The position numbers and the translations under genes were made by a program. A stretch of DNA of 64,000 bases from assembly GCF_964355755.1 (NCBI RefSeq), contig NC_092680.1:5805001-5869000 (forward strand), given 5' to 3'. This DNA comes from Antedon mediterranea (taxonomy: Eukaryota; Echinodermata; Crinoidea; Comatulida; Antedonidae). Numbering within the stretch: the stretch's first letter is position 1; the number at the start of each line of letters is the position of its first letter. This document shows positions 1,323-59,746 of the stretch, piece by piece. A model generated the notes under the pieces. That model did not search any database. It worked only from the letters and a program-made list of their open reading frames with translations, and was not told the origin of the DNA.

Positions 1323-4300
1323 ATGGGAGCTACACGTGCAAATACAAAAGGGGGTGGGAAAAACAAAAACACATCAGATAAAAACACAACACACACGGCT
1401 GCTAAGTCTGTAACGGTTTCCGAGTCACCATCAAGTAAAAAGGTGAGTTTATTTTGATCATAATATAGGCAGGTGAACTTGTTACCAAATTCAACTTCAG
1501 TCGCTGATGTAATTGTCATTCAGCTTAAACTAGGCACAGCTTATTAATGATATGGTATGTTTTTAGATGCAGGCAACACCAGATCAATTACGAATGGCCC
1601 AAATGTTATCATCTGATGTTGGTAGTGATAAAAGTGTTGAAGTAAATAAACAAGTTCAACAGGTACCGTGTACAATTAAACTTTTTGTAATAATATTTAT
1701 TTATAATATATGAAAAGATGTCTTGTTTTTCAATACCAATTTGCAACTTTTAAAAATTTTTTTGTAATAAACTATCTCATTATTATAATTGTCTCCTTAA
1801 TTATATATAATATACTGATGTACAGTAATTATAATGATTGGTCATCTGGGCCTAAAATATAACAAAACTGTGTAGAGGAATCGACACATCCCAATGGCAT
1901 TCTTGGGTCTTCTCAAATCGAAAGCTTCATATCCGATTATCTGTCTTATCGGATTCTGAATCCATTGAAAGTTTGAAGCTCTGTCTACATTATCAAACTA
2001 GTTTGACAAAAAATGTGTGATGTGCCCAAATATGGTACTGATATGACATCATGTCCATATATGGGCACATCACATTTTTTTTTGGCAAACTAGTTTGATA
2101 GTGTAGATAGAGTCAGTCAATCAGGTTACTGTACTGTGCTGAACCGTCATCCTCAGTACATGTCCTAGACATACAAACACATTACACATTTAAAACCTTG
2201 TTAATGACACCTTGTTGTATTTATAGATTATGGATGTCACTGGTAAAAGCGAGGAAGCTATTTTATCAGCCCTTTATGATTGTAATTACCAAACAGAACA
2301 GGCTATCGTAGCACTAATTGAAAGTGCTGATGATTCGGTAAGTACACTTTTTTTTTTTCTCATCAAAGAGAAGTTTTAGTCCTGAGTACAATGAGTTTTA
2401 TTTACAGTATTATTTAACATCTTACATATCATGCTGCACATTTTTAGGCAATCAAAATCATACCATGTCATACAAAATGTAGTTTCACAATTCAGGGTTT
2501 TAAGTCTATTGTTTTTCTAGCATACTTGGAAGTTGTTTATTTTTATTCATAAGTTAATATCTAATGTACTAGAAGAACTGGGTTTCTAATACCTGTTCAC
2601 ACTAAAGAAAACCTGATCACAATATTGCTTGTAAATGATGATAACCCCTGACACCTCATTTGAAAACATATCATCTCCATGGTTGTCATGATACCATCTT
2701 TTCATTCATATCTGATACAAGTAATAAAATTGCGAAAACAAATTTGTGGTGCAGCGTTGTGTTGGCAGTGTATTTATTCTCAATCAGTTGTAACTATTAA
2801 TGTGAGTTTAAAGTTTTAATAATGTTTATTTTTTCTTTATTAAGAATGAGTGGCAAACCATTAGCAGTAAGAAAAGCAAATCACAAAATACACAGTCAAA
2901 TAAACAGAGTGATTCCACTATAGACATTAAAGAAAAGTCCGACAAGAGGGATCGTGGTGATCGGGGAGACAGGGAAGATTTTAAAGATGGAAAGTCACGA
3001 GAAGGAAGGTCGAGCAGAGGTCGTGGTCGAGTACCACCACGTATGGCAAGAGGTAATTTATAGTTTTTGACAGTCCACCCATCCTTTTTAGAGAACCTTT
3101 GTCTTCCAATAATTTGTGATAATTTCCTTGTCGCAGGGCGTGGTCGAGAAAATGGATCAAGTCGAGACAATGATGACCAAAGTTTTGGTGGGGATCGAGG
3201 CTTTAGCAATGACCGAGGTGGTTTTGGCAATGAACGACGAGACAGGAATGAATCTGGTAGAGGACGAGGAAGAAGATTTGGTATGTGTTTCAGTCTATTA
3301 ACTAATTATAATAATAACGGCCTGTTCACACACAAACATGAATCATTAGCTTATATCCCAGAGTGAGCTTGTGGTAGTCTTGCGTCCGTTTATTTATAGT
3401 GGTGAATATAGGTATAAATGGATTAACACAAAATGATATTATTTATTGATATAAATTATTATATCTAAAAATGTTGTTATCATTATATATGATCTTTTTA
3501 GATCACATGAATGGCAGTGGAGGAAGACGAGGGGGTAGAGGGAGCTCGAGGTCTTTTACAAACTCTAAATTTGGGTAAGTTATCTTGTAATGTTACAGTG
3601 TAAAGAGCTCTACTACATACTGGTTAATTATATGATTTATTTAATTCATAAGTTATGATATAGTGTAGTATAGTACTAACCTTTCTATAATACTACACTA
3701 TTGAATGGTGTAAAAAGGTATTCATTTTGAGATATTGCTTGTAAATGATGATAACCTCTGACACCTCATTTGAAAACCTATCATCTCCATGGTTATCATG
3801 ATACCATCTTTTCATTCATATCTGATACAAGCTCATTTTCATTGCACTAAAACAACTAAAACCAATCAATATGCCTATTAGTATCTGGCGTTAATGTTTA
3901 AGAGGTATTGTTTACAAATGCATAATTATTTTGTTTTATATTTATGGGCATGGTTTTTGCTTGGTTGTTAAAGCTCTGTCTACACTATCAAACTAGTGTG
4001 ATGTGCCCAAATATAGTAGCGGTATACCCAAATACGGTATGACATAATTATGTCCATATATGGGCACATCACATTTTTTTTGTAACATAGCTGGATAGTG
4101 TAGACAGAGCTTAACAGTAGTATCAAATGCATTATATCATGAAAGCACACACCCAATGCTGTCCATATTTTTTGCATGTAAATTTAGTGATATAGTATAT
4201 ATGATGAAAAACGCTGTTTGTTTTCATTCAGAACATTTGAAGGAGATGCATTTACAGGGGCAAAACCGGGTGATAATGTTTGGACCAATCCACCAAAAAC

Positions 4301-7300
4301 ATCAGATCTAAGGAATAGTAGAAGCAATGCCAGTAATTTCACAGCTTCAAGTGAGTAGTTACCAGTAGTAGATATTTTCCTGAGGTGTATCGATTCAGAA
4401 AAACAAAATAAATTTTCACCCATGCTGTTACACTTTTAATTTTATTTTTAACACATAGCCAATATAAATAAAAACATCCACTAACCTAACAGGCTGAGAG
4501 AACAAATGAATAAAATATTTTTCAATTATTTAGATTTTAGAACTGAAAATAGTTAAAACTATCATACAATTTATCAATACCAATAACATTTTAAATCTTT
4601 TAAAAGCTAATCTTTGGAAAAAAAAACTCTCTTTGTAAAGTGTACTATTATAGTACAAAGCAGCCTGATCATTAATAATATCTACCATTATGTTTTTTAT
4701 AGCGTGGGATGGTGTACCAAAGTCAAAACCTTCAGTAAACCAACCAGCTGATGATTGGGGAATTGATGATTGGACTGGCGACGTAAGTTGATTTAAATAT
4801 TTTGTAGTGAGATTTCATTTCAACAGAGGGCATGTTATTTAATATTAGTGAAAATAGAGATAGCTCAAGATCTTAATGATCTTTTTTCAAAGAGTATATT
4901 AGTTCTAAAAAGGAGAGACGATCACTTCTGAGGACAATCAAAGTATATTGATTGAAACGTCGAGAATCTCAAAAAACCTTTCACAACTAATATGTGTGGT
5001 GTACCGCAAACTTGTTATGCTTGCATATTGTCATAATCAAAATCAGTACGAAAATCATTATACCATGTCACTATACCATTTAGACTTCTTTAGTAGATAT
5101 TGCTGCTTGTAAATGATGATAACCTCTGACACCTCATTTGAAAACCTATCATCTCCATGGTTATCATGATACCATCTTTTCATTCATATCTGATACAAGC
5201 TCATTTTCATTGCAATGTTAAAACAACTAAAACCAATCAATATGCCTATTAGTATCTGGCATAAATGTTTAAGAGGTATTGTTTATAAATGCATAATTAT
5301 TTTGTTTTATAGCTAAGCAAATCACAGGTGTTTACCCCAAGTACAACAGTCTCTTCAACATTTAAAGAAGAGTCATCTCCACCAGTGTACACTCCTAGTA
5401 TGGATTCTGCAGTTGTATCAAGTACTATATCGGCACCAGGCTCTCAGCCACCAATGTCACAAAGGTTAGTGCGAGCAGATCATACTATCGGCTTGGTTCT
5501 TATTAGGATGTAAGATAGGGCGTGAGCGCAACACAAGCATTGACCAATGACAAGCAACAGTTTGAATAATCCATTGCTTGTGATTGGTCAAATTACTTTT
5601 TTTCAAGTCTGGTGTAAACAGTTTTACAAAAATTGAACTGTAGGTCATATGAATTAGGTTTATTTAAAATTAATTTAATGTAATTGCTTGTAAATGATGA
5701 TAACCTCTGACACCTCATTTGAAAACCTATCATCTCCATGGTTATCATGATACCATCTTTTCATTCATATCTGATACAAGTAATTTTAGAGCGTAGTTTT
5801 GTTTATTAGCAGTGTTTTATTAACATATTATATATAGTATATGTACTTATTATTTATTCTTTATACTGGGTAGCCTCTTCAGTCTAAGACTGTTCTCCCA
5901 CAGGGTCCAGTGTATATATAAGTTTGGCTATGGTTTTTCAGTGACTGTGTGTGAACTAGTACACCGGGGTAACCTCCTACTCGTCTCGAAAGATGTACTA
6001 GGTTCTTTAAAGTGCACATAAGCCAGATGTGTACACTGGACCTACGGTTTATAGTTCTTATCCGAGAAGATGCATTCTACCTCCAGAACCATGGTGCGAG
6101 TGAGTCTTGAACAAAAGATATTAATTATTGATGTAATTTTGTTATAGCATTGATCTGGCAACATTGTTAGGCAAGGTACCTGGTTCTATGTCATCTACTT
6201 CACCATCAGTGGGTGAATCAATCCAACCACCATCAAGGCCGCAAACAGATGTCTTTACACCATTTGTAGAAATGAAGTCTCAGACACACGCAAATAAACA
6301 ACATGACCAGGTAAATTGTTATTTGTAATACCACATTAAAACATTTAACTTATACAGTAAATGACACTAAAATCAAAAGCTTACATATTCGACTTGACGT
6401 ACAGCAAATACTACAAGACAATACAGTAGTACCTATTTTAAGACGCGCCTTAAAGGGAACACTTTCCTGTGGGAAAAAAACGAAATATATGTTTTAACCC
6501 TAAAGCCAAACCTATTCAGGAGAAACTCCTATTAGGAGTATATGTTCTTCGGTCCGGAAGGTGTCCCCTTAGTAAGGTTCTACTGCGTTATTTTAGTAAA
6601 TTAAAACATTTTTGGAAAGTCTTATCTAGCAACACTGTCCTTTTATTTTGTAGATTGTCGTACCCGTACAACAAGTAGGTATTCAGCAGCAACGGCCTAC
6701 ACCGGTTTCTAACCAAGTAAAATCAACAAGAAAGAAACTGCCTCCGCCATCAAAGGTATGTGCACACCTGCATTCTTTAACCATGATTATCAGTATTTTA
6801 TTAAAATTGCCATTATCGCTGTCATGATTATTATCAGTACCGTCAAAATCACTATCATCAAAGTCAGATCATTGCTTGTAAATGATGATAACCTCTGACA
6901 CCTCATTTGAAAACCTATCATCTCCATGGTTGTCATGATACCATCTTTTCATTCATATCTGATACAAGTAATGCTTATGTACTCCTTGATGATTGTTGAT
7001 CAAAAACTTGTCATTAATACAAGTTAAAAGATAGATAGATAGTTTTTGTATATGTTTTGGGTATTTTTTTTTTATTATTTTGTGCGACATGTCTACTAGG
7101 CCCTCAGTCTTGTACTGAAGAGGTGAACCAGTTTAAAGAAAGAAATAAATAGTCACAAAATTCACATTTTTATTTAACTTTTTATTTGATATTTTCATAG
7201 TATTGGTGTATATTTATCTTGGTTGACAATTTAAATGAAGTTTTCTTTCTTTTTTATGGAAATAACAATTTTCAGCCGTTATACAAAAACTGAATGAATC

Positions 7301-10300
7301 TAATTCATGTTTCTCAGATTCCGGCATCAGCAGTAGAGATGCCAGGGTCAACTCGTGGGATTGGAGCATTGGATGTACAATTTGGTGTTATGGACATGAA
7401 TAGTGACCAATCATCAGGATTCGGCATTGGAATCTCGATACCGTCATCATCATCTGTACCATCTGCAGCGCCGCCTTCAACATTACCAGTCAGTAATTCA
7501 ATGCCACCAGGAATAACGCAAAAAGCAGTTTATAGGTGAGATTACACTACTTAAAACCCATTTCAGTTAAGATTATACCTGGGCCTTTGAAACCAACTTA
7601 TCCCAGGCAAATAACTAAGACTGAACAGGCCCATGGTCGGTCCACTGCTGGACCAATGGAGGTACACCTAATTGGTGACAGTGGCTTAGGCTGCTTTTAT
7701 TTTTTTTTGTATTTCATACTCATCCAACAGCGAGAACAAACTCGCCAATTACTGGATGAATAAACGTTTGTGCTTTCCTGGCAGCTAGTGACTATGATTT
7801 TATATTTTCTCCTTTGTTGATTTGTATTATATTTTGTAAAATGTATCTTTTGCCTGAATAATAATAATAATAATGTGTTTGCATGACGCTTCCAGAGGTC
7901 TTTCTTTCTCATACCAGTACGGTAGGCGTAGCCAAATATCGTTTGATTTCATCTCTCTATCATTTACACTCTGTTCATTATTATTATTTATATTGCTTTA
8001 AATCATGGTATGAAAATATGTAAGGTTTTATAATTGTATAAATGCTCAATCCAGGACAATAAGTAAAAATCAATTTATATAGAATATGCTTAAATGATGA
8101 CAAAGTTTGAGGTCTCCTAATATACTTTATAAATTGTATGTATGTGAGGATTTCTTTTTAATCTGATTAGCATTATTCTTATACATTCTTTGTACACATT
8201 ATTTTCATGCCATGTATGCCGTATTTCTCCATTATTATTAATATCGTTTGTTTTTTTAGTGTTGAAGACAATAGTGTATCAGGTAGTTATGCGTACCCAT
8301 CTCAGAGGAGCGATACGTCGTACTCGACAAATAATGCCGGGAAAGTGCACATACCATTTGGCTTTGAACAAACAACCATTACAGATAAGACCTCACAAAA
8401 CAAGGTAATTAATAAATTTCAATTTGATTTTCATTTCCACAATATTATAACATACATACAGGATAATAAATGCAATGAAGTAATCATGTGGGGGAGAGTC
8501 ATATAAGTCACAAAGACTTTTAAGTCTGACCCACCCCAAGATATAACATTATTAAATACGAATACGAAAAAGAAAAAAAAATATAAATAAACTAATTATA
8601 AATAAAAGAAAACAAAGCTACAATTTCTATTTAAACGATATTATCCGATCTGTTTATCATATCTTGAAAGTAAATAGTTCTTGTATACTAATTTAAATTT
8701 AGAAGTTGTAGATGCATTTTTAATATCTAATTTAATTTGTATTTGTATTGTCACTATATGTGAAAAGAAACCCCACCATAATTAAACAATGATACACATT
8801 TGACAATAACAACAACATTTTTTTTAATTTTATTTTTCTTAATTCAAACAGTAGTTTTATAGGTAACATATTTTTTTACTAAAAAAATTAATATTGTTAC
8901 ACACAGATACAAACTCCGGTTGTTATTCCTCTGCCAAATCAGAATGATTTAAAGCCAAATTCATACATGAGCCCACAGAAACCACAAAACCAAGGGTCTA
9001 TTGACGCATACTCAGCTAACCAACAATCGCAAATGCCAAGGACTGCCGCATCCACCTTATCGTCCAGTGGACTCTCATCAACGAGTGCTCTTCATCAGCC
9101 TGCAACTGGTTATTCTACTGGCTCTCAATCTCTTGGTTCAAGATCGGTGAGTTATTACCCTACAAGCTTGAATCTATTGAATTTGAATGTGAACCTAGTC
9201 TTAAGCTCAAAAAAATGTGATGTGCCTATATATGGACACAATGATGTCATATCACTACAATATTTGGGTATATCACTACCATATATACATCACACATTTT
9301 GTCAAACTACTTTGATAGTGTAGACAGAGCTTTAGCTTTCTATAGCTACTTCTCTGTTTCAGTGTTAATTTGCACTATGAAAAGAAAATTCTATTATGAT
9401 CACTCAAAATGATGTTATCAATACTTTCGTTCTTCTGAATGAACATTGAGGAACATACCTGTATCCACTGATTGAGTAAAATCGATTTTTGTTTTAAATT
9501 TGAAACAAATAATTATGGATTTCCTCCAAGCACAGAAATGTGGATTTCCATGTATTATCAGTATTAAGTTTATATCAATCAATGACTTATTTTTGCAGAG
9601 TCAGAATTCTTATGGCAATAGTGACCAATCATCAGGAGGGGCGAGTGTACTAGCCAACTCGCGACCTACAGTTAAAGCAGATTCATACACAGGGTCGGGA
9701 TCAGTCTCGGGACTGAACACTGTCATGCCATCAAGTGCCCATGGCAAAGGCATCAATCCTGGAAGCCATAATCAAGGCTTATCCAATACGGTTCCTTCAG
9801 GATTAAATACCTCGGTGCCAAGTAGTCTAACAGGAACAGGTGCTTTTGGTTCCTCGTCTCTTAGTTCTTCAAGTGCAAATAGCAAAATTACAACAAGTAT
9901 TGGCGGTGGTGCCAGTGCTCTGGGTGGTCTGACGAACACTTCTCAATCTACCAGCCACTCTGCACTAGGATCTAGTTCTTTGAATACTGGTTTGAGTGGT
10001 AATAACCAAATGAGCTCGAGTAGCGCATCAACGCACACAAGTGTACAGACTTCACCAATGTCATCTAGTAAAATGGGACTTGATGCAAGGGTAGGTAGTA
10101 GTAAGATAACTTTGTTTGTAGGTACATTTGTTTACCTTTCTACGTTAATTTAATATCTACTGTAACAATAGCCATAAAGAATATGTGACATTGATAACTA
10201 GGTATTCATAAAGACATGATGATTATTCATAGCAAACAAAAATATTTATATAAAAAAATATTCAGGTATAAATCATTCTTAATTACTTTACTTTGTTACT

Positions 10301-13300
10301 TTAAATATTTTTAATATAAACTGGAAATGCCATTCTCTCGTAATCATTTTTAATTGGATCTAAATACATAGAACCTAGAGTAGGGGGGTTTCCTTAGTGT
10401 ACTCGCCCAGTCCTTGTTAAATCGAGACAGATGGACGGGCTCCGCTTTATTTTTTGCTCAACATGAATGGATCATTTTGCGATTATGCCGAAAAATGAGG
10501 TCCTGCACAGTAAATATGATGATTGTATATATTGAATTTTGTACAGTTGGACAATAGTAATCATATAGCTAGAGGCACGTCTGGTATGGTACCATCACAA
10601 GTGTCGTTACCATCAGCATCGTCATTAGGAGTCTCTCCAGTCACGGCCAGTACAACCTCATCCTCTTCACTTGGTTACATAAGCTCATCAAATTCCTCAT
10701 TACTTTCATCGACAAGGACAACGCAGGCATCAACAAGTAAGTATATTATTATTTATACTGGGTAGCCTTTCAAAGACTGTTCTCCCAGAGGGCCCAGTGT
10801 ATAGTATAATACTATGATCCCGAAAGATGTACTAGGTTCTTTAAAGTGCACATAAACCATTTATAGTCCATATCTGAGAAGACTCGTTCTATACCACCAA
10901 AACCATGGAGCAAGTGAGCCTCGAACCCTTGTTGATGTTATGGCTACGTATTACTGTCTTAACTGCTCGGCTGCTCGCTCATTAAAATGTTTTTTTATTG
11001 TTTGAAAGATTCTTCCATGCCGTAAGCTCTGTCTACAATATCAAACTTATTTGACAAAAAAAATGTAATGTGCCCATATATGGACACGATGTCATCACTA
11101 CCATATTTGGGCAAATCACACTTCTTTTGTCAAACAAGTTTTATAGTGTAGACAGAGCTTTAGTAACACAGTATAAAAAATGTTATTTTTCATTGTACTA
11201 GTGTAATTGATTTTTCAACCTTTTGCTTATTTATCTTTTTCAGCAAAAGCTGCACCAAATCTGCCACCTGGCATGCCGCCTCTTCTACCGAATCAGTACC
11301 TGATGCATAATCCACTACTTGTCAATGCTTATGTAAGTGATTGTTTTTTTTTTAAAGCTTTATTCATATATAATTAAAGCTTAGAATTGGAGATAGTATG
11401 ATCATTTTAAGAATTATGTTATGTGCATGATTTTCCTTGAAACTAAGTAAAGAGTAAGTAGTAATATTAAAACCAATTTTATAATTGTATAAATGCTCAA
11501 TCCAGGACAATAAGTAAAAATCAATTTATATTGAAAATGCTTAAATGATGACAAAGTTTGAGGTCTCCTAATATACTTTATAAATTGTATGTGAGGATTT
11601 CTTTTAGTAATCTGATTAGCATTATTATTATAAAATTTTTTTACACATTACATTTTTTTCATGTCGTATTTCTCCAATATAATTAATACTGATTATTTAT
11701 CTAGTGTTAAAGACAATAGTGTATGAAGCACTGTCTACATTTTCAAACTAGTTTGACAAAAAAAGTGTGATGTGCCCAAACATGGTAGTGATTTTCCCAA
11801 ATATGGACTTGATGACATCATCATGTCCATATATGAGCACATCACATTTTTTTATAATTAGTTTGTATTCTCATGATTTAGTTTAATTTTTTCTAGGCTC
11901 CACAATATTTTAATCTTGATGATGCAATGATGTTACAATCCAGAATGACACTTGTAAGTATATGTAAATATTAAGTCAAACTTAATAATGTTATGCCAGG
12001 TATGTTTGGATGATGATAAAAATTGCGCATTTTTCTGAAATCTGATGATCTCATTATCAGTGTAGCACTGACAAACATACCTGATATATATAACATTACA
12101 TTTTTTTAGATCATAGTCATTACATATTAGATAAAACAGTGGTCTGTTAATAGAGTTTTTATTGGGGTAAAACCAATGGAGTTAGGTCGCCGTGTGGACA
12201 CATAAGACACTTGACTTGAGTCCCAGTAAGAGACCAAATGAGATCAACTCCTGACTGTACCTGGTTGAAAATAAGTCTTTAAATGTAAATATGTCATTCT
12301 TTTTGACCAGTTTCAACCACAGCAGACGGCGGCGCTGGCTGCAGGTCGTGATGCAGGTTCCTTAGGCACTACACCTTACTCGGTGACGGAAGCAAATAAG
12401 TTTGGGAGGACGGATGCCTCATCTCCCGTAGCAACAATTGCTACACAGCAACAAACACAACAACAAGGTAAATTTTGTATTCCTACATTTTTTTTAATTA
12501 ATAAAAAAAAAAATTCAAATTTCCTATTTAAACTGCTTTTCTAATTGTTTTATTTTGTGTTAATATATAGTAAAAAATAAAATATATAGTACATAGTAGT
12601 ATGGTCCTTAGAATGGACCATGTAAACAAAATTGTGAATATTTGTACAGAAAGTTTTTTTAACACTGAAATGTGGATAATTAATGTATTTATTTGTTTTT
12701 TATCTTCAGGACAAACAAATCATCACCAAACACAAACAGCACAACAGCAGCCATCATTCCACCCCACAGTTCCTCCCGGCTACAGCTACGGAGGGTTCCC
12801 ATTTTATCCGGCAGGATTGGCAGGCCCAGTCCCAGGATTACAGTATACGCCAGCTGCGGCAATGTTTCCCACAAATATGGTGAGAATTATTATCCTATTG
12901 TCATAAAGGTTATGTACATTGTATTCATAATTTATGTGTATATTATTTATCTGCTTTCAAACTGTATTGTCTCTTTCTTTTCTTTTTTTCCAGATTCCCC
13001 AAGCAACTAGATCACAATCTGGAACTACGCCACACACAGGTTTTCAACATAGCACATACGGCCAACACAATTCTCATACCACATTTGCCACAGGTATGTA
13101 ATGGCTGTGTTGTGTTCCTTAAGCTCTGTCTACACTATCAAACTAGTTTGTGCCTAAATATGGTAGTGATATGCCCAAATATGGTAGTGGTATGACATCA
13201 TCATGTCTATATATGGGCACATCACATTTTTTTGTCACATAAACTTTGATAGTGTAGACAGTATACAGTTCAACCTCTAGAAACGGCCCTACAATGTCAC

Positions 13301-16300
13301 TCTTTAAAATATAAAATTTGTGCAGATCCAGCAACTTTCTTATCTGCATATGTATAAAAAAATAAACATTTCAATATTAATTTTTTTAGATAAAAACAAT
13401 ATCTCAATATGATGTATTTATATACTTTCGTTCTTCTGAATAATTTTTGAGGAATACTTCTGTATTTTCTGATTGAGATTAAACTAACAAAATGATTTAA
13501 GCTTCTGTTTATAGTTTTCTATTTCAATAACATGCTAGTACTTTATGTTCATCTCGACTTGAAAATTTAAATTTTTTATTTTCTACGAAATTATAAATTC
13601 TTTTGTGATTATGTAATTCTTTTTAGGTTATGATGATCTATCGGCGACACAAGATTTCAAAACTGGGTATGGAGGAGTTTCGCAAACACAAAGTAAAAAT
13701 ACAGGTAAGCTGATAATATACTAACCATATTCTAATTCATGTATTTTCAGTGGTAATTTCAGGTGGGTTTTTAAAAATGAATAGGATGATTTAAAACGCT
13801 GCTAAGTATCATGCATTATGGAGTTAATTGGTCAGATTTGTTGCTGACGTAAATTGTAGTTCTCTGTACATTCAGAACATTGTTCTCAATGAACGGAATT
13901 GAAGTACAATTTACGTCAAATTAAAGCAAAACATCTGACTAATCAATGAAAGATTCTTGTTATTGAATGCGTGTCATTTCCTTTACTGTATCTTCACAAA
14001 CTGTCCAGAAACAAATTATAGTACTGAGAATAGGCTATCAAGTTTACAATTATGCTATACGGGTTCAAAATTTCACTTTGTGTGTTTTAACTTGATACTA
14101 TTAAATAGTAATGTAAATTATATCTTTAAAAACCTCATTTAAATACAATATTTCACAATAATTCATTTCTCTGTAGTATAATCTTGAAACTACTACTACT
14201 TTGTCCTTGACACTGCTTTATATATTGAACACTTTACAACTGAATTGAATATTAATTAAATAACACGATTAACTTCTCTGCTGTGTTTATAAATGTACAC
14301 ACAATAGCAATGGTTGATAACAATGTTAATGTGCTATTAGTATAAGTGATAATTTCCTGTCTAAAAAATTAATTTTATAAAATGTTTGCTACGCTGACAC
14401 ACAGCCAATGTTCATGGTAACATAAACTCAGATTTTGTAGTGTTTGTTTGTCATTATGTTTTTAGTATGTGCCAACTTCAATGTGTTTAGCTCTGTCTAC
14501 AATATCAAACTAGTAAAAAAAAAATGTATGATGTGCCCAAATATAATAGTGATATGCTTAAATATGGTAGTGATATGCTCAAATATGGTAGTGATATGCT
14601 CAAATATGGTAGTGATATGCTCAAATATGGTAGTGGTATCCTTCAATATGGTAGTGATATGACATCATCATGGCCATATATGGGCTCATCACATTTTTTT
14701 GTCTCATAAAGTTGATAGTGTAGACAGAACGTTATACTAATGTTTGCTGTGGTATCTAATTCTTGCATGTTTTTTCCATGTTTTTCACAGTGGGAAGAAA
14801 TTCAGGTAATTTACTGCATGTCTATCAATGAAACTAACATTAACTTAGTGCTGCCAAGAAACTGAAAATCAAAATAATTCTTTAAACCAATTACTTTTAA
14901 ATACTATAGTTAATACAGTAGAACCTCATATTTACGTACCCTGACCCTACAGCAGCGACAGATTTTATTGATAGAAAATACAAGAACATTATTTATAACA
15001 CTTTATTTAAACATTGTGCAACCTGCATCTACTTTTTTAGTTAGGCCTCGCGTTTAGCTAAGCCTACTAGCCTGGCCTAGATAGTATAGACCTAGCTAGT
15101 GACCACCTACATGCTGTAAGTAAAGTCTTCTTGCTACACATTTCTACAATTGTGTAGCAAAATATACTATAGAAAACTATGTTTCTTGATTCAAACATCA
15201 GTTTTATTAGCAATATTGCTAAACAAAATTTTAAGATGAAATTTTTCCCTACATAAAATTAAGGTTCTACTGTAGATCTCTGAAAAGAATCTTGCAGACC
15301 AAAGTAAACTAACAGTGCTAACCTTTCGGATATTTGTTTTGTGTTGTCTGTGTTTTTTTATTTAATATTTTTACTAAAAAAAATAAATGCATTTCGTAAC
15401 ATTTGCAAGGGATAAACATATTAACACTAATAATAATAATGAAAATGTTATTATATTAATATGATTAAATATAAAATTATTATTTTAAAATTAGCATGAT
15501 TTAATAGGACTGTTGACTACTAACATTCCGTTACAACAATGTTTTGTTTTATTGTCATAAAATAGTCAACCAATTCTCCCAATACCACAAGCTGTCAACA
15601 ATGGTTACAATTTTGTAAAATTGTATTCGGGCACCGGGGGAGTTTTGGACAGGCCCAACGATATATAATATTGGGCCAGCTTAAAGATATACTGTACGGT
15701 ATTGGGAGAGTTGACTGTTAGTAAATATTTCATTATTTATAAGTGTAGCATGATTATGTAGCATATGATTTCATGGGATGCTACAGACTTCAGTGGCAAT
15801 TGCCATACTGTCCGTATATAAGTTACTACTAAACAGTAGTAGAGATAAGGCTGAATAGTTTGTTTGCACTCAAGTTTCTAAAGTTTGAATGAAAAGTGAA
15901 CCCAATTTAATGTCCCCTTATTAGGGTCGTTCCTAGTGTTCAGCATATTGGCCCTTGTTTGTTTCACAGGAATGCGTCCCTTAATAGATGGTGTTTTACT
16001 GTATTTTATGAACTTTATTATATTTTTATGCTTTAATTTAATCTCTTTTCTTTTCAGCTGTAACATCATCTTCTGGGCCATCAGATTTAACTGGTTCTTC
16101 ATACACAAACAAGACACATACTGGTTTTGATTCAAAGAGTTTCCATGGCACTCCGCCACCTTTCAACATCCCACTTGCTGGGGCCGGTCAAGGAGGACAC
16201 ATAAATCCATCACCTTATGCTCATACTCACAGCCCGTTTGTACCCATGATGCAACAACCACACATCCTTCCCCATCAGATGCATAGCGATGGACAAGGTG

Positions 16301-16386
16301 GATCGACGCAACGCTCGCAAACATCCGCCACCCAGGGTAATAAGGGTACGTACGGTAATAAAGGAACGTATGGCTGGGGAAGCTAA
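1323..16386 (+). CDS. UBAP2L: UBAP2/UBAP2L (lingerer) homologue, 24 coding exons
   Basis: Exons in continuous phase: 1323-1442, 1567-1662, 2227-2337, 2845-3052, 3137-3280, 3502-3574, 4232-4350, 4703-4782, 5313-5464, 6148-6310, 6654-6755, 7318-7535, 8260-8404, 8907-9146, 9599-10090, 10547-10736, 11244-11332, 11897-11953, 12311-12467, 12710-12879, 12994-13093, 13627-13704, 14791-14805 (15-nt microexon), 16058-16386. They encode about 1,215 residues against about 1,090-1,120 in human paralogues. Visible domains: a UBA domain (residues about 73-109, ending NYQTEQAIVALIES), an arginine/glycine-rich segment (about 150-250) of the RNA-binding and arginine-methylation type, the family signature IPASAVEMPGS (from about residue 457), a long Ser/Thr-rich low-complexity region, PNQYLMHNPLL, and a C-terminus ending YGWGS. 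UBAP2-type proteins act in stress-granule assembly and bind ubiquitin pathway factors and ribosomes. A single ancestral gene would be expected in an invertebrate; the choice between UBAP2 and UBAP2L is arbitrary. Its introns host the snoRNA candidates below. Confidence 0.93.
1976..2113. mobile_element. palindromic MITE, AAGCTCTGTCTACA family
   Basis: About 140-bp near-palindrome with terminal inverted repeats AAGCTCTGTCTACA(C)TATCAAAC and a central CCATATATGG-like core. The best-preserved copies are flanked by TA, suggesting a mariner-type non-autonomous element. This copy lies in an intron of the UBAP2 homologue. Confidence 0.8.
2625..2724 (+). ncRNA. intronic box C/D snoRNA, family A copy 1
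   Basis: Terminal stem TTGCTTGTA/TACAAGTAA (9 pairs, one G-U), box C ATGATGA at 2635-2641, box D CTGA at 2712-2715. It lies in sense orientation in the intron between UBAP2 exons 3 and 4, about 120 nt before the acceptor. It differs from copies 2-4 at only a few positions while the flanking intron is unrelated, so the 100-nt unit itself seems to be the conserved entity. The unit between the boxes is about 70 nt, normal for this class. Confidence 0.85.
3735..3834 (+). ncRNA. intronic box C/D snoRNA, family A copy 2
   Basis: Same unit as 2625-2724: box C at 3745-3751, box D at 3822-3825, 7-pair terminal stem. The 3' flank to about 3943 is also shared with copy 3, showing that these two copies arose by duplication of a block of intron. 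A MITE at 3971 lies just downstream. Confidence 0.83.
3971..4112. mobile_element. palindromic MITE, AAGCTCTGTCTACA family
   Basis: Both terminal inverted repeats are preserved (left 3971, right ending 4112), with the family's ATATGGGCACATCACA interior. It is intronic, just downstream of snoRNA family A copy 2. Confidence 0.8.
4870..5020. repeat. dispersed repeat with GAAACGT(C/T)GAGAA core
   Basis: The stretch from CTGAGGACAATCAAAG to GTGTGGTGTACCGCAAACTT is repeated with changes at about 39862-39950. The shared pieces are CTGAGGAC, GAAACG(T)TGAGA and GTGGTGTACCGCAAACTT. It resembles 3' ends of invertebrate retroelements, but no coding part is present. Confidence 0.5.
5103..5201 (+). ncRNA. 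intronic box C/D snoRNA, family A copy 3
   Basis: Box C at 5113-5119, box D at 5190-5193, stem GCTTGTA/TACAAGC (7 perfect pairs). The D box lies about 120 nt upstream of the splice acceptor at 5312, close to the spacing favoured for intronic C/D snoRNAs. The stretch from here to the acceptor is duplicated at 3735-3943. Confidence 0.85.
5683..5784 (+). ncRNA. intronic box C/D snoRNA, family A copy 4
   Basis: Stem ATTGCTTGTA/TACAAGTAAT, box C ATGATGA at 5694-5700, box D CTGA at 5771-5774. The interior is identical to copies 2 and 3 by eye. The intron around it also holds a SINE copy (5868-6115). Confidence 0.85.
5868..6115 (-). mobile_element. tRNA-derived SINE copy (minus orientation)
   Basis: Shares several blocks with 10752-10980 (ACTGGGTAGCC, GACTGTTCTCCCA, GATGTACTAGGTTCTTTAAAG). 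In reverse complement it matches the body of the SINE at 49585-49975 (TTAAAGAAC(C/T)TGGTACA). Intronic. Confidence 0.65.
6424..6585. mobile_element. non-autonomous element with CAGTAG(A/T)ACC ends
   Basis: The left end CAGTAGTACCTATTTTAAGAC is preceded by TA. The right end is AAGGTTCTACTG. An internally related, partly decayed copy is at about 36173-36335. The ends resemble those of pogo/Tigger-type elements of the Tc1/mariner superfamily. Confidence 0.65.
6871..6972 (+). ncRNA. intronic box C/D snoRNA, family A copy 5
   Basis: Stem ATTGCTTGTA/TACAAGTAAT, box C at 6882-6888, box D at 6959-6962. It carries one interior substitution shared with copy 1 (GGTTGTCATGAT instead of GGTTATCATGAT). 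The host intron is otherwise unrelated to those of copies 1-4. Confidence 0.85.
7985..8284 (+). repeat. intron/exon block duplicated at 11478-11726
   Basis: From about 8029 the sequence TATAATTGTATAAATGCTCA onward, through snoRNA B, the acceptor at 8259 and the first 25 nt of the exon, recurs at 11478-11726. The second copy keeps TGTTAAAGACAATAGTGTAT, a decayed exon start. It is a tandem-order segmental duplication inside one gene. Confidence 0.75.
8086..8173 (+). ncRNA. intronic box C/D snoRNA, family B copy 1
   Basis: Stem ATGCT/AGCAT, box C ATGATGA at 8094-8100, box D CTGA at 8163-8166, ending 86 nt before the acceptor at 8259. The segment before box D reads GAGGATTTCTTTTTAAT and would be the guide; I could not place an rRNA or snRNA target. 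A near-identical copy is at 11537-11622. Confidence 0.75.
9203..9333. mobile_element. palindromic MITE, AAGCTCTGTCTACA family
   Basis: The left end is shortened; the right TIR (GATAGTGTAGACAGAGCTT) is intact. It is intronic, immediately upstream of SNORD59-like copy 1. Confidence 0.78.
9400..9480 (+). ncRNA. intronic box C/D snoRNA, SNORD59-like, copy 1
   Basis: Stem ACTCAA/TTGAGT, box C ATGATGT at 9409-9415, internal D' CTGA at 9435-9438, box D CTGA at 9468-9471. The 12 nt before D' (9423-9434, ACTTTCGTTCTT) are perfectly complementary to the conserved 18S rRNA stretch AAGAACGAAAGT. The D'+5 rule places methylation on the second A of GAA. This is the site I know as guided by human SNORD59 (18S Am1031) and yeast snR54. 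The host differs from that of the human snoRNA. Confidence 0.87.
10752..10980 (-). mobile_element. tRNA-derived SINE copy (minus orientation)
   Basis: Related to 5868-6115. Its far end reads GAGCCTCGAACCC, the complement of a Pol III box B (GGTTCGAGGC), consistent with a tRNA-derived head transcribed leftward. Confidence 0.65.
11034..11160. mobile_element. palindromic MITE, AAGCTCTGTCTACA family
   Basis: Complete copy with both TIRs, flanked on each side by TA. Intronic in the UBAP2 homologue. Confidence 0.8.
11537..11622 (+). ncRNA. intronic box C/D snoRNA, family B copy 2
   Basis: Box C ATGATGA at 11545-11551, box D CTGA at 11612-11615, stem ATGC(T)/(A)GCAT as in copy 1. It differs from copy 1 by a 4-nt deletion and a few substitutions near box D. 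It lies inside a duplicated block (about 11478-11726) that also includes a decayed copy of the start of exon 8260. Confidence 0.75.
11726..11865. mobile_element. palindromic MITE, AAGCTCTGTCTACA family, 3'-truncated
   Basis: Left TIR present (one mismatch); the right end decays after CACATCACATT. It is inserted at the distal edge of the duplicated block that carries snoRNA family B copy 2. Confidence 0.75.
11997..12083 (+). ncRNA. intronic box C/D snoRNA, SNORD82-like
   Basis: Perfect 12-pair terminal stem CAGGTATGTTTG/CAAACATACCTG, box C ATGATGA at 12010-12016, D' CTGA at 12035-12038, C' CTGATGA at 12042-12048, box D CTGA at 12068-12071. The guide before D (12057-12066, TCAGTGTAGC) is complementary to GCTACACTGA, a universally conserved 18S stretch. 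The D+5 rule selects the A of GCUA, the site I recall as 18S Am1678 guided by SNORD82. The D' guide (TTGCGCATTTTT) has no target I recognise. Confidence 0.88.
13121..13261. mobile_element. palindromic MITE, AAGCTCTGTCTACA family
   Basis: Left TIR intact; the right TIR ends at TGTAGACAG before diverging. Intronic, upstream of SNORD59-like copy 2. Confidence 0.78.
13401..13479 (+). ncRNA. intronic box C/D snoRNA, SNORD59-like, copy 2
   Basis: Stem ATCTCAA/TTGAGAT, box C ATGATGT at 13409-13415, D' guide ACTTTCGTTCTT at 13424-13435 followed by CTGA, box D CTGA at 13469-13472. The stem differs from copy 1 on both strands yet still pairs, and the guide is unchanged. The sequence before box D has diverged between the copies, so only the D' guide looks functional in both. 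Confidence 0.86.
13827..13947. mobile_element. 121-bp hairpin MITE
   Basis: Imperfect inverted repeat: ATTGGTCAGAT and GACGTAAATTGTA on the left mirror TACAATTTACGTC and ATCTGACTAAT on the right. It lies in the 1.1-kb UBAP2 intron before the microexon. Confidence 0.65.
14489..14730. mobile_element. expanded palindromic MITE with internal 21-bp tandem array
   Basis: Same TIRs as the AAGCTCTG family, but the interior unit AAATATGGTAGTGATATGC is repeated about six times (roughly 14535-14660), making this copy about 100 bp longer than its relatives. Confidence 0.78.
14916..15272. mobile_element. non-autonomous pogo-type element, TA target duplication
   Basis: Starts CAGTAGAACCTCATA and ends AAGGTTCTACTG, flanked on both sides by TA. 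The interior includes a CTAGGCCT-rich stretch and a block (about 15130-15250) that recurs at 19505-19640. No ORF. Confidence 0.7.
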
Positions 16387-18744
16387 ATTTGAAAATACCG
16401 ATTAATTTCGGCATTGTTTAGAATGCTTGTATAAAATGTGGTTCTTGGCCAGAGAGAACTCTTATTATTTGCTAGATTTTCACCCCTCTTTGTACAAATG
16501 TAGTATACAGAAAAGCAGTTGTGCCTATGCTTCTTACAAATTCATGGCTTCTCGGATGTTTTTTTTTTGTATGTATGTAGTTTTTCAAAAATTAGTGTGT
16601 TTATATGTAAGTGGATTTTGTAACAGAATTAAAAATGTCTTCATAAATATTAAGAAAGTTTTTACGCAAAATACGCAAGAAAAAAAAATTTTAGGCGTGG
16701 TTAATGTCTCCCAGGAGACATACAATTTGTGATATTTTGTGTGTAAAATTTGGTTCAAAAAGTTTTAATTTAAGATATTGAAAACATCGTGTACATATTT
16801 TAAAGCTAAAGAAACAACAGATTTCTAGAGAATTTGCATATAAGGTCACAGAGGTTATAATACTGCTGTGCACAGCAATGTTGAGTGTGGTCTGAAATAG
16901 TAGTATTAAAATTGATGTATCTGTTTCAATGTTTAAAATACAGCCATTTCAAATCTAAAATAGGAGTTTTAACTGCACACCACTAATATGTCAAGTAAAA
17001 AAAAATCATTTTGGGCATGCTCGTGTTTCTGGGCATGGGCAGAATTACTTTTTTTTACTCGACAATCAACTGGCACACATCATGAAATCGAAAACTCCCT
17101 ATTATTGAGTATGGAGAATACACACTTGCATGAAAATATGTATTAAACTGTAATTTTAAAAGTATACAATAAATTATAACAAATCAGATGACACATTTAA
17201 ATATAATTGTTTTATTTATGGTGTTCTAAAAGACTTTAAAACCTGATAGAACACAAATTTCTCATATATTTTTTTCTTTCAAAACAATTTGTGAGTAAGG
17301 TGCTAATGATTATTCATAGCCTGAATGAATGATTTAGATATAATTATGCATTTTAAGTCCTTTTTTTCCTCTCTACTTACGATTCTATCATTGCGAGCAA
17401 TTCTATAGTCTGTCTTACACTTATAAAAATCTAACCAAGCTCATTAAGGTCGCAGGTAAAGATTGGAATGATATAAGAGATGGTAACAAGCATATGTACT
17501 GTATAATAACACCTGAAATAATAGCTAAACCCACCTGTGTTTTTAACGCATGTTTTGAATTGACACCTGTATATATTCATCACCTGTGTAATAACACCTG
17601 GAATAATAGCTAAAGACGCCTGTGTTTTTACCACATGTTTTGAATTGACACCTGTATATATTCGTCACATGTGTAATAACACCTGAAACAATAGCTTATG
17701 ACACCTGTGTTTTCACTACATGTTTTGAATTAACACCTGTATATTCATCACATGTGTAATAACACCTGGAACAATAGCTGACAACACCTGTGTTTTAAAT
17801 TGACACCTGTATTTTCGTCACATTATGTAATAACACCTTGAACAATAGCTGATAACACCTATGTTTTTTCACTACATGTTTTGAACTAACATCTGTATAT
17901 GCATCACATGTGTATTTCATCTGGAAATATTATTGATCACAAGTTTGGTAAATGACACTTGGCAATCCACTTTCTTTATTTTTATTGCATGCATTTTTGT
18001 AGAAAGCTGTAATTTATTGTTTCAAAAGTTAATTTATTTGGTGTTTGATAAATACTGTAAAGCCCTCTTGTCATGCAATAAAATAACTAAAAAACATTTT
18101 TTCAAATTCATTTTTTAATGTACTGTACAATTAAACTACATCAGTGTTATAAATAATGTAGTTTATATTTATTTGATTCGACTTTATCGACACAGATCAA
18201 TTTTAATGATAAATTCCATATGTTTTAACTCATGTTCTGTATAAACAATTTCTGTTTGAAAAAATACCAAATATAGTAATTATTATAACCATATTTGGTA
18301 TTTATAAAATGTCCTCTTGCCTATGTGAAATATAGATAAGTATTTAGACCAAGAAGTGGCATTGTGTTGCATGATCATAAGCAGTTTGGAAACTCGTTTA
18401 ATTAGTGTGTGTGTTTGTAATTGCCGCCTATGGAATGTAACAGAGATGTGCACAGTATTTAATTGAGATTTTCTTCGAATTCAGTGACATCATTATGACG
18501 TCATTCATTGCTTATAGATTATCGATCAGTTTTTGTGATTATGTGTAAGACTAGCATTTTAAGAGAAAACCATACAAATATCAGGTCTTGTATCTTCACT
18601 TTGTCATCTGTGTAAATTATCTTATTTGCATATATGTAAATTATCCTTGAATTTCAAGCATCCATCATGAGATGTGCAGTTTTTGTTATTCAATCTGTAT
18701 TTATTTCTTTAACATGACTTAATATACTATTTGAAGAGAATAAA
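16387..18744 (+). other. probable 3' UTR of the UBAP2 homologue
   Basis: No coding potential on either strand. Poly(A) signals AATAAA occur at 17168-17173 and 18739-18744; the second would include the 17505-17920 minisatellite. An 11-bp hairpin (ATACCAAATAT/ATATTTGGTAT) lies at about 18264-18304, and a palindromic TGACGTCA at 18496-18503. Which signal is used cannot be told from sequence. Confidence 0.5.
17505..17920 (+). repeat. minisatellite, about 85-bp unit, about 5 copies
   Basis: Each unit contains ATAACACCTG, AATAGCT, ACACCTGTGTTTT and TTTTGAATTGACACCTGTAT. Two units contain TGTATATA, which fits the Pumilio element TGTANATA. Units diverge towards the right end. Confidence 0.8.
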
Positions 18745-31200: not shown

Positions 31201-32537
31201 AGCATTTGTACAGAAGAATTAATTTAAAAGTAGATAAAAATCTGTGATAATACCATATGTGGCTCTGTGGTCTAGTGGTATGATACTCGCCCAGTAAGCA
31301 AGAGGTTGCAGGTTCGAATCCCACCAGAGACATTTTTTCATACAACTAAAAAATACGGAACTTTCGCCAATGAGCTATGCTCGACGCGATTATGAGATCA
31401 TGTTCCGAATTTTAGCACTGTTTCTATAATTTACAGTATGATTTATATAAAAATGAACTAACCTATTTTCAGATGTTTCCATTTTATTAGCAACCTTTAT
31501 TGATCCTAACACAGGGCTTGGAGGAATGTTTGGTGTTCTTCGTTCTATATCGATTTTCTGAAAGAAAAAAATTAAAAATAAAGAAAAACACTTTACTAAC
31601 ATCTGATCAAAAGAATAAAATATGGGCAACTCATCGCTACTAATGATACAAAAATTGTTGTGGAGCTGTAGCTTGGTGGTTAACATGCTCGCCTTCCAAT
31701 CCCAATGGTCCAGGCTTCCTAAATCTCTGTCTACACTTGACACACTACTTGACAAAAACAGTGTGAGGTGCCCAAATATGATAGTGATAAGCCCAAATAT
31801 GGTAGTGATATGAAATTATCATGTCTATATATGGAAACATCACATTTTGTTATCACATACAGTTTGATAGTGTAGATAGAGCTTTATTCCCAAAATGAAA
31901 CTTAGTTGATATGCATGATATAAAGTAGTTTATCTATCATGTTGGTTGATGAGTTACTTGCTGTTTGTGAACAAACATAATTGTTTTAAATGATACCAAT
32001 GTATACCTCTGCATGTGACAGTTGTCCATTGGCATTTTTCAGTTGTTGATTATGTTTTAAAAGTTGGATTGTGTGAAGGCTAATATAGTCTGGTCTACAC
32101 AAGTCGGGATGCAGTCTATAGTAAAATAAAACAATACACAAAGAAAATAGCGAGAATGGTTTTTCTTTACACACATCATTATGTGATTATATGATCTCTC
32201 TCTACGTAAACATTAGAAATTTAGAAATCCTCTTAAATATTAGTAGAAAAAATAATGTTAAATATCTTTATTTCAAAATATGGTGGGCAAAAAAGCAATT
32301 TTCACTCATAATGGTTTATTTTTTGTACATTTTGAGAGACCCTATAGAGAGACCAAAAAAATAACAATGGGGTTTGAGGTAAATAATTCCTTACAATGTT
32401 GGTTGTTTACGTGTAGATGGTTGTTGAAGATGAGAAACATCCAAGTGTAGAGGCTGAAGTTTAGTGAACGACAACTTCACATCCATGAATTTACTTCCAG
32501 ATTTTGCCGGAGGCAGCTCTCCCCAAAGACTGTTCAT
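28253..32537 (-). CDS. SUPT7L: STAGA/SAGA complex 65-kDa subunit gamma (SUPT7L)
   Basis: Minus-strand exons: 32537-32395, 32115-32007, 31557-31463, 30301-30192, 29867-29602, 29184-29150, 29019-28767, 28568-28474, 28265-28253; phases agree, about 371 residues (human 414). The start MNSLWGELPP matches the family. Other landmarks are LHTIQLLKHNQQL, the histone-fold core (ESALECLTDLLHEYYLKF, CKRLRLAVDREA), FWKTRIKDYHDF and the basic end NPRKKRKK. The last 13-nt exon supplies RKK and the stop; reading through the preceding donor would instead stop after one extra lysine. SUPT7L pairs through its histone fold within the SAGA core and acts in chromatin-coupled transcription. Introns contain a tRNA-like sequence, two MITEs and a 506-bp inverted-repeat element. 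Confidence 0.92.
29366..29486. mobile_element. palindromic MITE, AAGCTCTGTCTACA family, shortened
   Basis: Interior and inner TIR halves (CAAACTAGTTTGAC, GATAGTGTAG) are present; both outermost ends are trimmed. It lies in a SUPT7L intron. Confidence 0.7.
30648..31153. mobile_element. 506-bp non-autonomous element with long TIRs
   Basis: About 45-bp terminal inverted repeats: left GGGAGGTTTCGCAACCTTAC then GAATACGATAACGAAAAC; the right end is the complement with few changes. TA flanks both ends (30646-30647, 31154-31155). A CGAAT/ACGAATA-rich interior encodes nothing recognisable. In a SUPT7L intron. Confidence 0.8.
31261..31331 (+). pseudogene. tRNA-like sequence (Pro-type body, AGT anticodon position)
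   Basis: Good Pol III box A (TGGTCTAGTGG) and box B (GGTTCGAATCC), CTCGC/GCAAG anticodon stem and a run of six T just downstream. The acceptor stem has one mismatch, the T-stem two, and position 33 is C rather than T. The body resembles tRNA-Pro while the loop would read Thr. Best read as a tRNA pseudogene or young SINE head that might still be transcribed. Confidence 0.5.
31721..31884. mobile_element. palindromic MITE inserted in a tRNA-like SINE head
   Basis: TIRs AAATCTCTGTCTACACTT and GATAGTGTAGATAGAGCTT. It interrupts a tRNA-like sequence at about 31662-31715 (GTAGCTTGGTGGTTAA resembles a box A). Confidence 0.7.
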
Positions 32538-57853: not shown

Positions 57854-59746
57854 TATTTTATATCTGTAAAGTACTTGCGTTGATTTCTATTGTATACTAT
57901 ATATATATGTACAGTAATTATGTAAAAGATATTGTAATGTTATTATTAATTATTATATATTCTAGGTTATTTTTATTTTTTTAGTAATGTGTTTTGTTGT
58001 GGGTCCCTACGAGACAAGTTTTTAACTTCTAGAAGGGATCCATGATAATAATGACTACCAATTACTGCTTTATCTATGTTCACTTTAATATCTTTTTTCT
58101 ATTTTATATATATTCATTCATTATTATCTAAATAAATATTATCTGAATCTGAATCTGAATCAGTATAATTTGGTGGGCGGGGAGGGTGGAAGCTTGGTTT
58201 ATCCAAATGTACTTGTAAGGTTTTAAACTGCATTTAAAACCTGCTTCAGGGTGGGTATATTCGCTAGTAATATTCTAAAGATACTGTACCAGTATTTTAA
58301 AAGTTTTGTTATTTTTTATGTTCTGACCCAATTGACAAGATGTTAGTTTTTATATATACCATAAATATAGTGTCTTATACAATTCAAATCAAGTATATAC
58401 AACTTCCATAATCATCTTAATTTAACATTTGATTCAGAATTAGTGATGAGACTTTTAATAATACACATTCTAATTCTGTGAAGGACAGCTCCTACACAAT
58501 CATTATCAGCGTATGTGTTTTGGTATATTGCAATGATATCGAATAAACTGGTGTTCTGTTTCATCTCTGGCCTTTAACAATATATGCTAAAGATGAAGTA
58601 AAGTCAGCACCTCCACAACTTTGTGTCTACAAGAGAATAGGGATGATGCAATTAAATGCAGGCCGGAATATTTTAATAGCTGATAACAATTTATATTTTA
58701 TCAGTTGAATGATTCACCCTCGCATGTCAATGACCTGAGTTGTCACATGACTGTTAAGATATTGAAGGTTTAAAAACTTTTGACATACACATTACAAACA
58801 ACACATTTCTTGAAAAACATTTATTACAATATATGGTTTCAAATTTATCATAAAATTTATCTTTTCTTATAGAATAATTATGAATATTTGAATTCAAAAA
58901 ATATTTTAAAAATTTGTTATTTTATTTTTTTTAAATTTAAAATGGAATGTTATATGAAATTGTCATATTTGTCAATTACACACAGCACATATAAATTCAT
59001 TATCCTTATTCAATGGTGCCACACTCATTTAAAATGTATGTACAGAGTTAATGGCAGTTACATACATGGTCCTAATACTACTCTATCTAAAGTTAATTCA
59101 TAGTACAGAGGTACTTTTTAAATCATACCCATACTAGTTTTAATCAATTGCAGAAAATTTAAATATTTTATTAACTAAATTAATTAGTTATTACAAAATA
59201 CAATTACATGTAAATCTTATTTTAAAATGCCACCACCAAACAAAATGTTGTCCAAATAATACTATGATGAAATTGTTGTGGCATGTACAAGGTTTTAATT
59301 ACTAAAATTAAGTAGGAGTTGCAGCAGCGTGCTATATTTCATTTATTTCTAGCCTCAAAATGCGTTCCACAGTCACCAAATGGCCGATTAGATATCATGG
59401 TTGTAACCATTTTATGAATCGGCTTGATTTCACCAGATCAAATTACAGTTAACTAATTGTTGGTGGCTGAACTGACCTAAATGTAAATTCATTTTATACA
59501 ATTTTAATAAAGCAGTTAAAATAATATTTGGGTAAGATTGCACAAATGTGATGACCATGTCGAGGTACTTCATAATCATTTGCCTGTGGTTCTCAACAAA
59601 TTCTTAGTGTAGATAACCTGATTGTAATTTATGAATAATCTTCAAGTTCATATTAGCATAGCGTTACGGTCAGATTTGGCCCACAGACGGCTAATTGAGA
59701 CCTTCATTGCATCATTTAGTATGGGCCTACCATATTACAGGTGTTA
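57854..59746. other. TAF1C 3' UTR and convergent intergenic region
   Basis: A LINE-like 3' tail lies at about 57990-58162 (GTGGGTCCCTACGAGACAAG ... AATAAATATTATCTGAATC with CTGAAT repeats). The remaining 1.6 kb is AT-rich, with no exon recognised on either strand. Confidence 0.5.

Follow-up and report, generated by a model that had tools for sequence, protein, structure and literature searches.

Ten box C/D elements in a UBAP2/lingerer gene

We analysed a 64,000-nucleotide (nt) stretch of the genome of the crinoid Antedon mediterranea (NC_092680.1, positions 5,805,001 to 5,869,000; hereafter the window, in which all coordinates are given), where a gene of the UBAP2/lingerer family, encoding a stress-granule protein, carries ten box C/D small nucleolar RNA (snoRNA)-like elements in its introns (Table 1). 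The exons of this host gene were set by hand, giving a spliced model of 23 exons in which all 22 introns are GT-AG and a single open frame encodes 1175 amino acids; the start-codon exon probably lies just upstream of the beginning of the model at 1567. The deduced protein has a UBAP2-Lig motif (Pfam PF12478, 52.1 bits; threshold 22.2 bits), and its N-terminus matches PDB 1wj7_A (E 8.4e-13), which we take to be the UBA domain of UBAP2L. A UBAP2-Lig motif together with an N-terminal UBA domain marks members of the UBAP2/lingerer family, and both bear out the initial annotation of this DNA, which had named a UBAP2 homologue as the host. All 11 genome matches to residues 1–461 at E<=0.001 fell at the gene's own locus.

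We scanned the window for a box C (RTGATGW) followed 40–90 nt downstream by a box D (CTGA), with a flanking helix of at least five Watson-Crick (WC) pairs. This rule was fixed after the elements had been read, and was applied unaltered to shuffled sequences, to the minus strand and to the remaining window. The scan returned ten elements on the plus strand, with box C starting at 2635, 3745, 5113, 5694, 6882, 8094, 9409, 11545, 12010 and 13409, and none on the minus strand. By contrast, 300 dinucleotide shuffles of the gene (1571–16385) yielded a mean of 0.03 elements and a maximum of one, a difference that upholds the initial claim of ten C/D elements with terminal stems in four families. Relaxing the helix to four pairs added one plus-strand site (59548), and requiring six pairs removed B1 and left nine elements.

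All ten elements combine a RUGAUGA-like box C and a CUGA box D, at a scale of 70–100 nt, with a terminal stem; in the C1/C2 pair box C reads ATGATGT, as had been noted before. All are intronic on the sense strand, the usual arrangement for animal box C/D snoRNAs. The elements occupy introns 2, 5, 7, 8, 10, 11, 13, 16, 17 and 20, one in each, in agreement with the earlier statement that every host intron carries a single snoRNA, and the other 12 of the 22 modelled introns have none. The distance from box D to the 3' splice site is highly variable, ranging from 93 to 406 nt.

Table 1. Features of the host gene and its introns, in window coordinates ("scan": found by the box-and-stem rule; RF numbers are Rfam families)
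Feature	Position	Strand	Evidence
Host gene, UBAP2/lingerer family	1567..16385	+	23 exons modelled, GT-AG introns, Pfam UBAP2-Lig
A1, SNORD60-like, intron 2	2624..2725	+	box C 2635, box D end 2715, 10 WC stem pairs; RF00271 27.2 bits
A2, SNORD60-like, intron 5	3734..3835	+	scan; RF00271 29.5 bits
A3, SNORD60-like, intron 7	5104..5203	+	scan; RF00271 29.5 bits; ~100 nt of 3' flank common with A2
A4, SNORD60-like, intron 8	5683..5784	+	scan; RF00271 29.5 bits
A5, SNORD60-like, intron 10	6871..6972	+	scan; RF00271 29.5 bits
B1, C/D snoRNA, intron 11	8086..8173	+	scan; best Rfam match RF00353, 33.9 bits (gathering 45)
C1, SNORD59-like, intron 13	9402..9477	+	RF00160 27.1 bits; D' guide 9423-9434 pairs with 18S 982-993
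Doubtful SNORD121-like stretch, intron 13 (with C1)	9500..9578	+	RF01191 22.1 bits (gathering 44)
Duplicated segment with B2, copied from intron 11 with its 3' splice site and ~20 nt of exon 12	11477..11724	+	matches 8026-8279
B2, duplicate of B1, intron 16	11537..11622	+	scan; RF00353 30.2 bits
D1, C/D snoRNA, intron 17	12000..12081	+	stem of 12 WC pairs, longest in the scan; D guide 12057-12066 paired to 18S 1471-1480
C2, SNORD59-like, intron 20	13401..13479	+	RF00160 30.2 bits; D' guide 13424-13435 pairs with 18S 982-993

Several other features were seen in the gene and the window. The 15-nt stretch at 14791–14805, which shares the reading frame of its neighbours, is probably a microexon of the host gene. 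The region 17500–17867, 3' of the stop codon and probably in the 3' untranslated region, contains 3.5 copies of an 85-nt tandem repeat, overlapped by a second repeat with a 71-nt unit, and a tRNA-Thr (AGT) gene lies at 31260–31333. The site added at the four-pair threshold is a further box C/box D pair at 59548–59621 (+), with a stem of just four pairs. Palindromic repeats resembling miniature inverted-repeat transposable elements (MITEs), with ends AGCTCTGTCTACACTATCAAACTAG, occur at 1979–2112, 3971–4112, 11024–11160, 11759–11853 and 14492–14728, with related direct repeats near 9200–9335 and 13128–13262; inverted arms were found in five of the seven MITE-like stretches tested. One of these repeats gave a microRNA (miRNA) family match at 11025–11159 that we took as spurious, and another includes a 21-nt tandem repeat of 6.3 copies (14529–14661).

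Guides and relatives of the four families

We compared the elements with Rfam covariance models and measured box-anchored pairing of their guides with 18S rRNA against 200 shuffled 18S sequences. The 18S was our own cut of 1818 nt from this genome, and its numbering may differ by 1–2 bases from a curated 18S. The Rfam scan of the gene region (11.5 kb) listed 31 matches at E<=10, besides four lower-scoring overlaps from the same clans. The 47.6 kb beyond the 3' end of the gene gave seven matches at the same E limit, and no box C/D family was among them.

Family C has a guide, ACTTTCGTTCTT, immediately 5' of the D' CTGA in both copies, that pairs perfectly over 12 nt with the animal's own 18S at 982–993. 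The duplex starts at position 1 before D' and was equalled in none of the 200 shuffled sequences, and its fifth base falls on 18S A986. Between C1 and C2, the stem shows a double change from A-T to T-A that keeps the pairing. Neither copy reaches the RF00160 gathering score of 39 (Table 1), and hence we name the family SNORD59-like only. In a search of the whole genome with RF00160, C2 ranked first and C1 fifth among 11 matches at E<=10; the second-ranked match was rejected, since it lacks the guide and lies within a same-strand open frame of 91 amino acids. The D guide of neither copy matched 18S above chance. In chicken, U59 lies in intron 2 of ATP5B and guides 18S-A-989 (PMC2653536). Family C thus resembles SNORD59/U59/Z159/snR54 in its guide, in the D' position of that guide and in a predicted target, A986, that is the counterpart of the U59 site, whereas it has otherwise diverged and lies in a UBAP2-like host instead of ATP5B.

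Family D consists of the single element D1, whose D guide forms a 10-nt box-anchored duplex with 18S from position 2, again equalled in none of the 200 shuffles. Its fifth base falls on 18S A1474, which we take to be human A1531, counted as 41 nt 3' of the base matching human Gm1490. Human 18S A1531 is not known to be methylated. One paper names A1531 as a potassium-ion contact with eS19 (PMC10164566). A second 10-nt match of D1 to 18S (1674–1683) is not beside a D box and was taken as chance, and the D' guide gave no 18S match above chance. With box-anchored matches in families C and D, two parts of the initial annotation stand: the SNORD59-like pair with an 18S guide, and the presence of 18S antisense elements in two families.

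Family A, the largest, had been overlooked in that annotation; it is SNORD60-like. All five copies contain the 10-nt SNORD60 guide block CUGACACCUC, which equals the RF00271 consensus in the two alignments printed. The RF00271 gathering score of 42 is not reached by any copy, and for this reason we call the family SNORD60-like and nothing closer. Across the genome RF00271 had six matches at E<=10; A2–A5 took the first four ranks, and A1 was not among the six. Neither guide of A2, the copy tested, matched 18S above chance, and the guides of A2, B1 and B2 gave no run longer than 5 nt against 5.8S. The 28S motif GAGGTGTCAGA, presumably the relevant target sequence, is complementary to 11 nt of A2–A5 and to 10 nt of A1; the 28S target of family A is put forward as a prediction. 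In chicken, U60 guides 28S-G-3825 through its 5' antisense element and corresponds to snR48 (PMC2653536). Family A is like SNORD60/U60/snR48 in its guide block and in the location of that block after box C, but it has a longer D'–D half, scores of 27.2–29.5 bits and five copies in UBAP2-like introns, whereas chicken has one copy in a different host (PMC2653536).

For family B, no guide paired with 18S above chance: the B1 guide reached 8 nt, a length matched or exceeded in 27 of 200 shuffles, and the B2 guide and a possible D' guide of B1 each reached 5 nt. The family shares boxes and some spacer letters with snoR31/Z110/Z27 (RF00353), but its scores lie below the gathering score of 45. We considered family B as a SNORD36/snR47 counterpart and rejected it, as the 8-nt pairing of the B1 D guide, at 18S 626–633, is lost in B2; moreover, in the SNORD36 register the predicted base of B1 is 1 nt off by our reading of the RF00049 consensus. 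The SNORD82 label given in the initial annotation found no support, there being no SNORD82/Z25 among the 31 listed Rfam matches and no guide of the family pairing with 18S above chance.

Duplication between introns and alternative readings

DNA searches of the 354-Mb genome gave five matches for family A, two for B, two for C and one for D, all within the host gene. From box C to box D, A2–A5 are 98.8–100% identical to one another and A1 is 96.3–97.5% identical to them. By contrast, the 50-nt flanks of the A copies are 20–36% alike, except for the 3' flank of about 100 nt common to A2 and A3. For family B, the duplicated segment extends well beyond the element (Table 1), and as it runs through a splice site into an exon, we conclude that it was copied at the DNA level; exon 12 is intact only at B1, so that the direction of copying was from B1 to B2. 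The copied splice site and exon start in intron 16 (11661–11724), which stop shortly before a MITE-like repeat, could serve as a cryptic exon.

These patterns suggest that the families expanded by intron-to-intron duplication within the gene, while selection or gene conversion preserved the similarity of the snoRNA cores. The near-identical cores of A1, A4 and A5 in unrelated flanks may reflect strong selection, gene conversion or copying of the core only. We considered retroposition of family A and rejected it, since no poly(A) or target duplication was seen by eye beside the copies and the A2/A3 flank argues for DNA duplication; this argument from common flanks covers A2/A3 and B1/B2, leaving A1, A4 and A5 undecided by it. 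Cis-duplication of C/D snoRNAs is known (PMC2653536; PMC8178906), and the growth of intronic C/D arrays by duplication is well known; the set of snoRNAs in this host gene differs from that of its vertebrate counterpart. Like gas5 and chicken RPL17, PUM1 and GNL3 (PMC2653536), the Antedon gene has snoRNA paralogues across the introns of a single host, but here the host is a protein-coding UBAP2-like gene with four families and ten members.

We conclude, with a probability of roughly 0.93, that a single UBAP2/lingerer gene contains ten intron-encoded box C/D snoRNA genes with predicted guides, and that the array grew by intron-to-intron duplication. On the predicted route of expression and processing, the host pre-mRNA would be transcribed and spliced, the lariats debranched and trimmed back to the terminal stem, and the C/D core proteins assembled on boxes C/D and C'/D'. 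The guides would then direct 2'-O-methylation of 18S A986 (the SNORD59 site) by family C, of 18S A1474 by family D, and of the 28S SNORD60/snR48 site by family A. Several points weigh against this conclusion. None of the snoRNA matches reaches its Rfam gathering score (the best are 30.2 against 39, 29.5 against 42 and 33.9 against 45). The folds of the five of ten elements folded were only modestly more stable than those of shuffles (z -0.66 to -2.33). Several guides have no 18S pairing above chance (both of A2, each D guide in family C, the D' guide in D1 and the three tested in family B), and a DNA search of the genome may miss diverged copies, such that a missing match is not the same as absence.

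Part of the array could instead be a graveyard, in which some copies are live and others, for example A1 or B2, are duplicates in decay. B2 differs from B1 by a 2-nt insertion, a 4-nt deletion and a changed D guide, the uneven spacing between box D and the 3' splice site fits such decay, and the 3' flank common to A2 and A3 suggests recent copying. However, all ten elements retain both boxes and a terminal helix of five or more WC pairs, and no guide core is damaged in any of the eight members of families A, C and D; we regard decay of part of the array as unlikely, though a serious possibility. That the repeats are a mobile element resembling a C/D snoRNA by chance is hardly credible. MITE-like palindromes do lie in introns of this gene, and the family A cores are near-identical in unrelated flanks, but a mobile element would be expected to be dispersed, whereas every genomic copy found is in the host gene, and two families have 18S guides in register with their D or D' box.

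SNORD121 and the UBAP2 family as snoRNA hosts

The initial annotation stated that mammalian UBAP2 hosts SNORD121 and suggested that the gene may be an ancient snoRNA host. The vertebrate part of this is corroborated by chicken, where introns 13 and 15 of UBAP2 contain SNORD121 and intron 27 contains ACA40, and where UBAP2L has an H/ACA RNA (PMC2653536); the ancestral position reported for SNORA58 is UBAP2L (PMC3511168). Chicken UBAP2 and the Antedon gene have the host gene family in common, but none of the ten elements is SNORD121, and the resemblance is limited to one boxless stretch in the intron of C1 (9500–9578). Neither the Rfam scan of the host gene nor the two best of seven genome matches contained an intact SNORD121, and the literature searched contained no report of UBAP2 as a snoRNA host outside vertebrates. 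The proposal is supported only by half: the gene family hosts snoRNAs in both animals, but the snoRNAs are different ones. An ancient role of UBAP2 as a snoRNA host is possible but unproven.

A stronger version would have UBAP2 serve as a snoRNA host without interruption from the deuterostome ancestor onwards, initially of SNORD121, with 9500–9578 as the decayed remnant of that snoRNA. Consistent with this, the chicken and SNORA58 positions place snoRNAs in both UBAP2 and UBAP2L, and the stretch aligns over the whole SNORD121A model with the guide-region CCAAGCACA retained. Its E value is 3.3 when all families are searched over 11.5 kb and 0.07 within 241 bases, and for a single family it would be about 3.3/4227 = 0.0008. 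However, it shows no recognisable box C or box D and its score is half the gathering score of SNORD121A, to which it cannot be assigned on these grounds; moreover, comparable scores were reached in that Rfam scan by unrelated families (for example SNORA13, 22.8 bits), and the seven genome-wide SNORD121A matches at E<=10, all outside the window, score 23.9–38.4 bits. We therefore consider unbroken hosting doubtful, at well under an even chance.

The two best of those seven matches, L009 and L010 (38.4 and 36.1 bits), were rejected as palindromic AT-rich repeats that match many unrelated miRNA families; at 4090–4230 of L009 and 4040–4145 of L010 lie CTAGAAAACTCAGATCT-type palindromic arrays, whose scores with miRNA models and SNORD121A we read as false. 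In the other 47.6 kb of the window, RF01191 is absent among the seven matches at E<=10, a weak control given that 22 bits corresponds to E of about 14 there. A search of the genome for the SNORD73 family gave no match and recovered no control.

The human protein UBAP2L itself binds the C/D snoRNAs SNORD44 and SNORD49A, and its binding is reduced by loss of the arginine-glycine-glycine (RGG) region; SNORD44, SNORD49A and SNORD30 promote the association of UBAP2L with G3BP1 in vitro, and depletion of NOP56/NOP58 weakens that association and lowers the number of stress granules (PMC10104854). In the same report, snoRNA was not visible in granules by fluorescence in situ hybridisation. Human snoRNA hosts are often genes for ribosome or translation factors (PMC8178906). 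The Antedon protein has an RGG/RG-rich stretch encoded by exons 3–5. A self-supplying unit can be imagined, in which the UBAP2 protein would bind its own intronic C/D snoRNAs through RGG, join G3BP and seed stress granules, while D1 would 2'-O-methylate 18S A1474; a coupling of protein dose to snoRNA dose would then explain why snoRNA arrays recur in this gene family. We think such a unit very improbable, and that a host of ten snoRNAs belongs to a snoRNA-binding protein family may be coincidence.

The Antedon gene adds a large snoRNA host, in which counterparts of SNORD59 and SNORD60 lie in a host other than that of chicken, and the guide of D1 predicts a methylation of 18S at A1474. With it, another member of the UBAP2 family would be known to have acquired snoRNAs. 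As human UBAP2L binds C/D snoRNAs and depends on them for its association with G3BP1 (PMC10104854), the overlap between snoRNA host and snoRNA binder in one gene family is directly testable.

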